Assembly: GCA_013540605.1 (NCBI GenBank)
Contig: JABVCK010000001.1
Span: 186,001 to 250,000, forward strand
DNA length: 64,000 nt
Source of the DNA: Bacillota bacterium
GTDB lineage: Bacteria > Bacillota > Clostridia > Ch29
Direction: 5' to 3'
A model generated the notes under the pieces. The model had not been told where the DNA came from and made no database searches. It saw only the letters and a list, made by a program, of their open reading frames with translations. Positions 30,411 to 46,362 of the stretch are shown in pieces. Within the stretch, counting starts at the first letter, position 1. Each line of letters starts with the position of its first letter. A program made the translations under genes and the position numbers.

Positions 30411-30680
30411 ATGGCAGTGAGAATAAGGCTTAGAAGGATGGGAGCCAAGAAGAGACCTTTCTATAGAATCGTAGTAGCGGACTCAAGGTCCCCAAGGGAT
30501 GGAAGGTTCATCGAAGAAATTGGATACTACAATCCGATATCTGAACCCAAGGAAATAAAGATTAATGCTGAAAAGGCCATAGAATGGCTGGGTAAGGGAG
30601 CAAAGCCCTCTGATACAGTTAAAGCCCTGTTTGAGAAAAACGGTATATACGAGCAGATTAAGAACAACAATAATGAGTAG
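30411..30680 (+). CDS. rpsP: 30S ribosomal protein S16
   Basis: 89 residues: [26 protein letters not shown]-type start, the S16 signature. AAGGAGGTGAG lies before the ATG. First gene of the rpsP-khpA-rimM-trmD-rplS group, whose order is conserved across most bacteria. Confidence 0.98.
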
Positions 30681-30697: not shown

Positions 30698-30928
30698 ATG
30701 AAGGAACTGGTCGAACTGATAGCTCGAGCTCTTGTGGATAATCCCGAATCAGTGGAAGTGAATCAGGTTGAAGGTGAACAGTCGATTATTATTGAACTAA
30801 AGGTTGCACCTGATGATATGGGCAAAGTGATAGGCAAGCAGGGCAGAATAGCGAAGGCAATAAGGACCATCGTGAAAGCTGCGGCTACCCGTGACAGCAA
30901 GAGGGTAGTAGTGGAGATAATTGAATAA
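30698..30928 (+). CDS. khpA: KH-domain RNA-binding protein KhpA
   Basis: 76 residues. The single KH type-II-like domain has the VIGKQGRIAKAIR loop (GXXG-type RNA contact). KhpA forms a dimer or pairs with KhpB/Jag and affects cell division and small-RNA function in Gram-positive bacteria. Gene order rpsP-khpA(ylqC)-rimM is standard; the ylqD gene found between them in Bacillus is missing. Tandem hairpins follow its stop. Confidence 0.94.
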   Translation: MKELVELIARALVDNPESVEVNQVEGEQSIIIELKVAPDDMGKVIGKQGRIAKAIRTIVKAAATRDSKRVVVEIIE

Positions 30929-30930
30929 GG

Positions 30931-30954
30931 GTTAGGTTGTGCCTAACTCTTTTT
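30931..30954 (+). terminator. Terminator-like hairpin 1 after khpA
   Basis: GTTAGG (30931-30936) pairs with CCTAAC (30942-30947) and TCTTTTT follows. The right arm can instead pair with the rimM ribosome-site region (30978-30991), so this hairpin has a competing fold. Confidence 0.65.
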
Positions 30955-30991
30955 AAGCACCCGGTCGCCGGGTTTTTAAAAAAAGTTAGGC
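30941..30991 (+). promoter_or_regulatory. Alternative leader structure hiding the rimM ribosome site
   Basis: GCCTAACTCTTTTT (30941-30954) can pair with AAAAAAAGTTAGGC (30978-30991) at 13 of 14 positions. The right strand includes the start of the rimM ribosome binding site GGCGGTGAG. This helix excludes hairpin 1, so the RNA has two mutually exclusive folds. Confidence 0.5.
30959..30977 (+). terminator. Terminator-like hairpin 2 after khpA
   Basis: ACCCGG, TCG loop, CCGGGT, then four more T residues. A short but G+C-rich stem. It would be enclosed by the long-range helix between 30941-30954 and 30978-30991. Confidence 0.7.
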
Positions 30992-31000
30992 GGTGAGATT

Positions 31001-31507
31001 ATGGAGTACTACAGAATCGGTTATATAGCAAACACCTTGGGAATCGCCGGGGAGCTTAAGGTGCAGGTCTTAACAAATGATATTGCGAGGTTCTCCTCGC
31101 TGGAATTTTGTTTTATAGATATGGGAAAAGAAAAGGAAAGGGTTGAAATCCAGTACTACAGGGAATACAAAAAGGGCTATATAATAATCAAATTTAGAGG
31201 CTTGGATACAATAAGCGAAACGGAAAAATTCAAGGGAAGATATATGGTTGTGGACGAGGATAACCTAGCTCAATTGGAGGAAGGGCACTATTATATATTC
31301 CAGATACTGGGCTGCCGTGTAAAAACAGAAGAGGGAGAAGAACTGGGCGAAGTAACGGATGTTTTGCAGCCGGGAGGAAACGATGTCTACGTAGTGAGGG
31401 GAAGGGAGAAAGAAATCCTGGTGCCGGCCGTGAAACAGTTTGTAAAGGATATAGATATAAAAAGAAAGGTCATTACCGTTGACCTTCCGGAAGGGCTGAT
31501 AGAGTGA
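31001..31507 (+). CDS. rimM: Ribosome maturation factor RimM
   Basis: 168 residues. Two-domain 30S assembly factor acting near S19; the N-terminal domain begins YRIGYIANTLGIAGELKV (translation-barrel fold) and the PRC-barrel C-terminal domain contains GEELGEVTDVLQPGGNDVYVV. It ends by overlapping the GTG start of trmD by 4 bases, the conserved rimM-trmD coupling. Confidence 0.95.
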   Translation: MEYYRIGYIANTLGIAGELKVQVLTNDIARFSSLEFCFIDMGKEKERVEIQYYREYKKGYIIIKFRGLDTISETEKFKGRYMVVDEDNLAQLEEGHYYIFQILGCRVKTEEGEELGEVTDVLQPGGNDVYVVRGREKEILVPAVKQFVKDIDIKRKVITVDLPEGLIE

Positions 31508-32232
31508 GAATAGATGTGCTGACCCTTTTCCCTGAAATGTTTTATGGAGTTTTGTGCAGCAGTATTTTGGGGAAAGCCGTGGAAAAGGGATTGCTAACGG
31601 TTAATCTTGTAAATATCAGGGATTTTTCCAAAGACAAGCATAGGAGGGTCGATGACTACCCCTATGGCGGCGGAGCAGGAATGGTAATGATGGTACAACC
31701 CCTGTACGATGCAATACTCAGCATAAAGGGCACTGATCCCGGAGCAAAGACCATAATGACATCACCCAGAGGGAAAAGGTTTAACCAGGCCATTGCAAAG
31801 GAACTCAGCACCGAGAAACACCTGGTTCTGGTATGCGGGCATTATGAAGGGGTTGACCAAAGGGTAATAGACAGCATGGTGGACGAAGAAATATCCATCG
31901 GTGACTATGTGCTCACAGGGGGAGAAATTCCTTCGATGGCAATAATTGATGCGGTGACCAGATTGCTCCCGGAAGCCCTTGGAAGCTCGGATTCGCTGGA
32001 GGAAGAGTCGTTCAAACAGGGCCTGCTGGAGTATCCCCAGTATACCAGACCTGCCGAATTTAATGGTATGAAGGTGCCGGAGGTGCTCCTTTCGGGGAAC
32101 CACAAAGAGATTGAAAAGTGGAGAAGGGAAAAGTCCCTGGAGGTAACACGCAGGTTCAGGCCCGATCTTTTGGAAGGTACCCGACTTTCGGTGGAAGAGG
32201 AAAGACGTATGCAAAGCAAAAACTCATTGTAA
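31504..32232 (+). CDS. trmD: tRNA (guanine-37-N1)-methyltransferase
   Basis: 242 residues. SPOUT enzyme that methylates G37 next to the anticodon to prevent frameshifting. DYPYGGGAGMVM, the SAM-binding trefoil-knot segment with HYEGVD and SIGDYVLTGGE, and YPQYTRP are intact. GTG start overlaps the rimM stop. Its stop codon is part of the -35 box of the rplS promoter. Confidence 0.97.
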   Translation: MRIDVLTLFPEMFYGVLCSSILGKAVEKGLLTVNLVNIRDFSKDKHRRVDDYPYGGGAGMVMMVQPLYDAILSIKGTDPGAKTIMTSPRGKRFNQAIAKELSTEKHLVLVCGHYEGVDQRVIDSMVDEEISIGDYVLTGGEIPSMAIIDAVTRLLPEALGSSDSLEEESFKQGLLEYPQYTRPAEFNGMKVPEVLLSGNHKEIEKWRREKSLEVTRRFRPDLLEGTRLSVEEERRMQSKNSL

Positions 32233-32255
32233 AGAAAGGAATTATATGCTATAAT
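32227..32255 (+). promoter_or_regulatory. Internal promoter for rplS, overlapping the end of trmD
   Basis: TTGTAA (32227-32232, containing the trmD TAA stop), 17-base spacer, then TGCTATAAT, a perfect -10 with an extended TG. It allows L19 to be made at higher levels than TrmD. Confidence 0.82.
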
Positions 32256-32271
32256 AACATTCGGTCACTAC

Positions 32272-32322
32272 GGACGGTCCGCTGTCAGGGGTGCTGACAT
32301 GAACGTCTAGGAGGGAAGGAGG
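32272..32322 (+). promoter_or_regulatory. L19-type ribosomal protein leader
   Basis: GGACG (32272-32276) can pair with CGTCT (32304-32308), enclosing a TGTCAG/CTGACA hairpin with a GGGTG loop (32283-32299). Position and shape, and the ATGAACGTCTAGGAGG-like end, fit the L19 leader known upstream of rplS in Bacillota, thought to be bound by L19 for feedback. Confidence 0.65.
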
Positions 32323-32329
32323 TACACAA

Positions 32330-32674
32330 ATGGATCTTGTAAAGATGGTTGAAAGCCAGCAGTTAAAGAAGGAAGTACCAGCTTTTAATATTGGAGATAC
32401 GGTTAGAGTACATGTAAAGGTTAAAGAAGGAAACAGGGAAAGGATACAGGTCTTTGAAGGTATCGTAATGAAGAGGCAAAACGGTGGTATCAACGAGACC
32501 TTTACCGTAAGGAGAATATCTTATGGAGTTGGAGTGGAAAGAACCTTCCTGCTACATTCTCCAAAAGTAGAGAATATTGAAGTGATCAGAAGAGGTAAAG
32601 TCAGAAGGGCTAGACTCTATTATTTGAGGGATAGGGTTGGAAAAGCTGCCAAAGTTAAAGAGAGACAAAGATAA
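32330..32674 (+). CDS. rplS: 50S ribosomal protein L19
   Basis: 114 residues, normal size. [16 protein letters not shown] and [13 protein letters not shown] near the middle, then [18 protein letters not shown], are L19 hallmarks. L19 lies at the 30S-50S bridge. AAGGAGGTAC precedes the ATG. It has its own promoter and leader and is followed by a strong terminator, so it forms an independently regulated gene. Confidence 0.98.
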
Positions 32675-32677
32675 TTC

Positions 32678-32710
32678 TTATGGGACTGGTAGGCAGTCCC
32701 ATAATTTTTT
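32678..32710 (+). terminator. Intrinsic terminator after rplS
   Basis: TTATGGGACTG (32678-32688) and CAGTCCCATAA (32694-32704) form a perfect 11-base-pair stem with six T residues after it. Confidence 0.95.
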
Positions 32711-46274: not shown

Positions 46275-46362
46275 AACCGATAAAGGCAAACCCATTGAAA
46301 GGTGGGGACGCAAAGCCACGGGCCTAAAGTAAACTTTGCTATGGTAGCCGGGTTGCCGGAAC
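46275..46362 (+). ncRNA. Cyclic-di-GMP-I (GEMM) riboswitch
   Basis: The conserved parts are all there: AAAGGCAAACC, a GAAA tetraloop (TTGAAAGG), GGGGACGCAAAGCC, GGGCCTAAAG and the ATGGTAGCCGGGTTGCC end, in the right order and spacing. This class of aptamer binds c-di-GMP, the signal that favours biofilm over swimming. It is placed in front of flgB, the first gene of the flagellar operon, the same place where Clostridioides difficile has its c-di-GMP OFF switch. An intrinsic terminator lies 22 bases downstream. Confidence 0.95.

Follow-up and report, generated by a model that had tools for sequence, protein, structure and literature searches.

The question raised by this locus is what an RNA able to fold in two competing ways might do in the gap of 72 bases between the khpA stop codon (30926-30928) and the rimM start (31001). 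The window, that is, the whole 64,000-nt stretch of DNA that was analysed, carries at this site the gene order ffh-rpsP-khpA-rimM-trmD-rplS, as read from its open reading frames (ORFs). The genes concerned are the following:

30411..30680, + strand: ORF for ribosomal protein S16, presumed to be rpsP; its protein query retrieved rpsP loci
30698..30928, + strand: ORF presumed to be khpA (KH-domain protein, YlqC family), the name given by the earlier note
31001..31507, + strand: rimM, an ORF with a homologue in 6/6 genomes of the family
31504..32232, + strand: ORF presumed to be trmD from its position
32330..32674, + strand: rplS (L19), an ORF with a homologue in 30/30 genomes searched

Homologues of khpA were found in 372 of the 391 Clostridia genomes of a class-wide search. 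We consider it probable, from the letters and their comparison across genomes, that the site is an operon-internal intrinsic terminator at the boundary between rpsP-khpA and rimM-trmD-rplS, joined by a hairpin near the rimM ribosome site that was found in this genome alone. Four elements lie in or reach into the gap:

30929..30954, + strand: hairpin 1 with its U-run, a conserved intrinsic terminator by energy, covariation and placement after khpA in relatives
30959..30977, + strand: hairpin 2, ACCCGG-UCG-CCGGGU with a U-run, a second terminator-like hairpin (−9.2 kcal/mol)
30940..30992, + strand: long hairpin, formed by an outer helix around hairpin 2; not conserved and predicted to form solely in read-through RNA
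30989..30996, + strand: rimM ribosome-binding site, GGCGGTGA, by anti-SD pairing (−11.6 kcal/mol, with assumed anti-SD letters)

The earlier note had described 30941-30954 as pairing either with 30931-30936, in a terminator-like hairpin, or with 30978-30991, and both pairings proved right in letters and coordinates. In the first, 30931-30936 pairs with 30942-30947, and the helix extends to eight pairs, GGGUUAGG/CCUAACUC (30929-30936 with 30942-30949; predicted energy −10.0 kcal/mol), with UUUUU at 30950-30954 directly 3' of the stem. Hairpin 1 therefore has a stable eight-pair stem with a U-run immediately after it, as an intrinsic terminator should; its strength is uncertain because the U-run is short (five U, then AA).

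The same hairpin was sought class-wide in 231 loci, made up of many of the best-matching khpA places in the class search (among them 114 of the listed places that had no locus yet; places left out include G299, G363, G373 and G239), 80 rpsP loci from another collection and the loci of the window's own family; khpA was matched in 226 of these, and 213 were unique. In 178 of the 213 unique loci a hairpin with a T-run was present close to the khpA stop, from 20 nt ahead of it to 90 nt beyond it. Hairpins of the GTTAGG type were aligned (alignment A1) from 42 of 47 motif-matched loci, the other five (L047, L077, L113, L119 and L168) being dropped as judged non-khpA hairpins or irregular. In this alignment 98.6% of cells were paired and 9 of the 10 pairs showed both-side changes, where cells count sequences and not independent events, and none of 500 shuffles was as good. 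The expression that selected the rows referred to the inner five pairs alone, and the outer five (columns 1-5), free of this selection, all carried both-side changes. Such compensatory changes across relatives are a further mark of an intrinsic terminator, and they bear out, for hairpin 1, the covariation that the earlier note had proposed to look for.

R1, a covariance model built on hairpin 1, was rejected as a specific probe after matching 91 of 148 genomes, many of them at other terminators, and exact patterns were used in its place because of this lack of specificity. AGTTAGG-N2..8-CCTAACTCTTT occurred in 13 of 391 Clostridia genomes (12 directly after khpA, 1 elsewhere) and GGATTAGG-N2..8-CCTARTCCTT in 10 of 391 (8 directly after khpA, 2 elsewhere); both patterns were derived from khpA hairpins, so that these counts show where else the letters occur and not their frequency at khpA. 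Six of the eight khpA-adjacent GGATTAGG matches were in genomes whose KhpA is just 51-61% identical to that of the window. The sole non-khpA match of the AGTTAGG pattern (L244, 1501-1526) has nearby, by eye, a glycine-riboswitch-like sequence and a sodium:alanine symporter. One small genome (G063) gave 25 R1 matches (L257 1501-1532 and other places), at a recurring terminator-like hairpin with similar letters.

The second pairing, 30941-30954 with 30978-30991, comprises 13 of 14 possible pairs, the sole mismatch being C30949/A30983. The G+C-rich hairpin that had been described as nested inside it is the stem-loop at 30959-30973, hairpin 2, which has its own U-run at 30973-30977; with it the outer helix makes up a long hairpin of about 23 pairs. 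Predicted energies were −19.2 kcal/mol for hairpins 1 and 2 together, −23.9 kcal/mol for the outer helix with hairpin 2 and −28.7 kcal/mol for the best fold. The 53-nt hairpin at 30940-30992 reached −28.5 kcal/mol against −10.8 for its shuffles (sd 2.6; 0/1000 as low), and only one of 4,919 tiles across the 64-kb window, its own, was as stable.

Rather than a regulator, the long hairpin could be a site of RNase III-type processing, or else a palindrome that is mobile or repeated. Some 23 paired bases in a single hairpin, found in the window genome alone, are consistent with such an origin, which we nevertheless regard as very improbable; a 161-base query around the site matched only itself in its own genome, where no other copy of the long hairpin was found, so that it does not belong to a repeat family there, and the repeat or mobile palindrome was rejected as a single copy. 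Searches against Rfam gave no family at gathering score at this site and no ribosomal leader near 30931-30991; the best low-threshold match, a microRNA model (E 0.11, far under its cut-off), was taken as chance. Elsewhere in the window, a c-di-GMP-I riboswitch was seen at 46275-46360 (88.1 bits).

Since hairpin 1 and the outer helix use a common strand, they could also act as a two-state switch, with KhpA, a ribosome at the khpA stop codon or S16 as the effector that picks one or the other. Folding of the growing transcript, computed as equilibrium at each length and not as kinetics, gave hairpin 1 a probability of 1.0 through base 30988 and the outer helix one of 0.94 at base 30991 and 0.98 at 31003, a changeover that suits a switch. 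The duplex of the downstream arm with 30941-30956 (−16.5 kcal/mol) was equalled by just 19 of 5,000 shuffles of that arm, and the 5' strand of hairpin 1 would be expected to lie under a ribosome that has reached the khpA stop. Against this, the outer helix is incomplete until base 30991 has been made and cannot form before the terminator is complete; by then RNA polymerase is already beyond both U-runs, so that the helix is not a classical antiterminator, is by itself no bar to termination and would act only after read-through.

Comparison with relatives also tells against the switch. Among the six genomes of the family, the window's included, one relative (G005) kept hairpin 1 alone (GGGTCAGG..CCTGGCTC), another (G004) kept a CCCGG..CCGGG stem, as in hairpin 2, and the T-run with a weakened hairpin 1, two (G001 and G002) had a degenerate or absent hairpin, and in the last (G003) hairpin 1 was lost and 16 bases separate khpA from rimM. 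In none of the five other family genomes does a GTTAGGC arm accompany the rimM ribosome site. Furthermore, when the 3' strand of hairpin 1 was paired with its own rimM upstream region or with those of other genomes, in 39 of the 42 A1 loci (in the rest the rimM gap exceeded 260 nt or the upstream sequence was too short), the means were −6.61 and −6.27 kcal/mol, and native pairing was not better than swapped (permutation P=0.115; P=0.225 without the window). Taken together, the family comparison and the swap test rule out the outer helix as a conserved element. An attenuator with an antiterminator should keep both helices, and the earlier note had named the conservation of one alone as refuting its reading; only hairpin 1 is conserved among relatives. 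The case for a regulatory switch is therefore weak, the competing fold having been found in one genome only, and we think a switch improbable. The analysis turned up no effector and nothing in favour of S16 or KhpA, the two candidates of the earlier note.

The outer helix had also been said to cover the rimM ribosome site, which holds for its upstream part only. Bases 30989-30991, and sometimes 30992, are paired, whereas the core GGUGA (30992-30996) is predicted to be mostly unpaired in the widest context (P about 0.75-0.84), a further point against a switch. A more general pairing of the khpA end with the rimM start (native −7.34 vs swapped −6.81 in 135 loci, P=0.0025) was set aside, because this P value is uncorrected for matching base composition within a genome.

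Is the letter conservation of hairpin 1 peculiar to khpA? As controls, 30 genomes from six families (f1, f30, f40, f45, f46 and f70) were also compared at their rplS, groEL and rplT terminators, with hairpins recovered after khpA in 28/30 genomes, groEL in 26/30, rplS in 30/30 and rplT in 30/30; in G004, hairpin 2 was taken instead of hairpin 1. The rplS terminator closes the operon:

32678..32704, + strand: operon-end terminator with stem core GGGACTG/CAGTCCC, conserved

At least five stem bases were shared by a fraction of 0.425 of inter-family pairs for khpA (247 pairs) and 0.618 for rplS (301), against 0.014 for groEL (212), 0.010 for rplT (301) and 0 to 0.037 for cross-gene pairs; the genomes had been chosen mostly for the khpA motif, so that selection favours khpA and not rplS. 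Nearly all 30 control genomes carry GGGACTG/CAGTCCC or close variants after rplS, a conservation stronger than that at khpA. Just upstream of rplS, 32273-32308 weakly matched the family of L19 leaders (19.9 bits vs a cut-off of 36, E 0.61), and a promoter-like site at 32227-32255 may be likened to P3, which lies ahead of rplS in B. subtilis (PMC10100781).

In all 178 khpA hairpins, stem sharing between loci with KhpA identity below 70% was 0.0087-0.0220, against a cross-gene null of 0.0108, and at identities of at least 70% it was 0.071, 0.250 and 0.659, clearly above the null; because only these exceed it, the motif is confined to some families. Some families thus do conserve the letters, the class as a whole does so unevenly, and the rplS terminator shows the same property.

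This pattern bears on a further explanation, that hairpin 1 (GAGUUAGG/CCUAACUC) is a putative protein-binding feedback signal at which KhpA/KhpB or one of the operon's ribosomal proteins would set read-through. Stem letters, beyond pairing itself, are kept across families and lie mostly after khpA, and the groEL and rplT terminators of the same genomes do not keep theirs (0.014 and 0.010 vs 0.425). RNA binding by KhpA has been shown in living B. subtilis cells (PMC12456014), and preliminary KhpB RIP-seq in E. faecalis pointed to tRNAs, sRNAs and 3'UTRs (PMC10117718). Yet the rplS terminator is better kept (0.618), so that the property is not peculiar to khpA, which weakens letter conservation as proof of a khpA-specific regulator; the 30 genomes were largely selected by the khpA hairpin motif, and the hairpin is lost in several relatives. 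We accordingly hold it unlikely that hairpin 1 is such a signal. In its wider form, with both the khpA 3' hairpin (GAGUUAGG or GGAUUAGG plus complement) and the rplS terminator as putative protein-read RNA elements in Clostridia, and with KhpA/KhpB or a ribosomal protein at the khpA hairpin setting read-through into rimM-trmD, the idea seems to us unlikely to the same degree. If true, a protein-read khpA hairpin would supply the control that the trmD operon has so far lacked; a 2024 review states that nothing is known of how the operon is regulated (PMC10931766).

We thus return to the operon-internal terminator as the preferred explanation. From the structures and their pattern of conservation, both read off the letters themselves, we infer that hairpin 1 and its U-run would halt part of transcription at the boundary between rpsP-khpA and rimM-trmD-rplS; S16 and KhpA would be made in excess over RimM and TrmD because transcription partly stops there. 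Hairpin 2, with its own U-run, would serve as a back-up terminator. In read-through RNA, the 3' strand of hairpin 1 could pair anew, this time with a repeat of the 5' strand located next to the rimM ribosome site, and the resulting long hairpin, an arrangement found in the window genome only, may reduce rimM translation or act as a cleavage site. The terminator is a concrete, testable candidate for keeping S16 abundant and RimM and TrmD scarce in such operons. Also unexpected is a contrast within one set of genomes, where stem letters persist from family to family at the terminators of this operon and are not kept at those of groEL and rplT. The open-licence papers covered by our search did not describe any hairpin after khpA with a conserved sequence.

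Three known systems offer comparison. Transcription attenuators have mutually exclusive terminator and antiterminator helices, with a common strand and a U-run; the window likewise has mutually exclusive helices sharing a strand and a U-run, but its alternative strand comes only after the U-runs and is not kept in relatives, and no leader peptide or ligand domain was found at the site. In the trmD operon of E. coli, rimM is translationally controlled by mRNA folding and RimM is made far below S16. That system resembles the window in having one operon with mRNA structure at the rimM start, and differs in that neither khpA nor a terminator at this place is known there and in that its structure is a different one.

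The closest parallel is the B. subtilis operon ylxM-ffh-rpsP-ylqC-ylqD-rimM-trmD-rplS, in which terminators downstream of ylqC (T1) and rplS (T3) have been mapped (PMC10100781). Its transcripts end at T1, before rimM, while longer ones include rimM (PMC10100781), so that the operon, the terminator after khpA (ylqC), the stop ahead of rimM and, in B. subtilis, short and long transcripts correspond to what is proposed here. The attenuation suggested by the earlier note stands in a loose sense, as an operon-internal terminator that restricts rimM transcription, and is well supported in this form by conservation and by the mapped equivalent in B. subtilis; the two-fold switch, whose outer helix is not conserved, is not. 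The two operons differ in that B. subtilis has ylqD between ylqC and rimM, that Bacillus hairpins have other stem letters, and that the window has, beyond the terminator, a second hairpin as well as the rimM-side arm.
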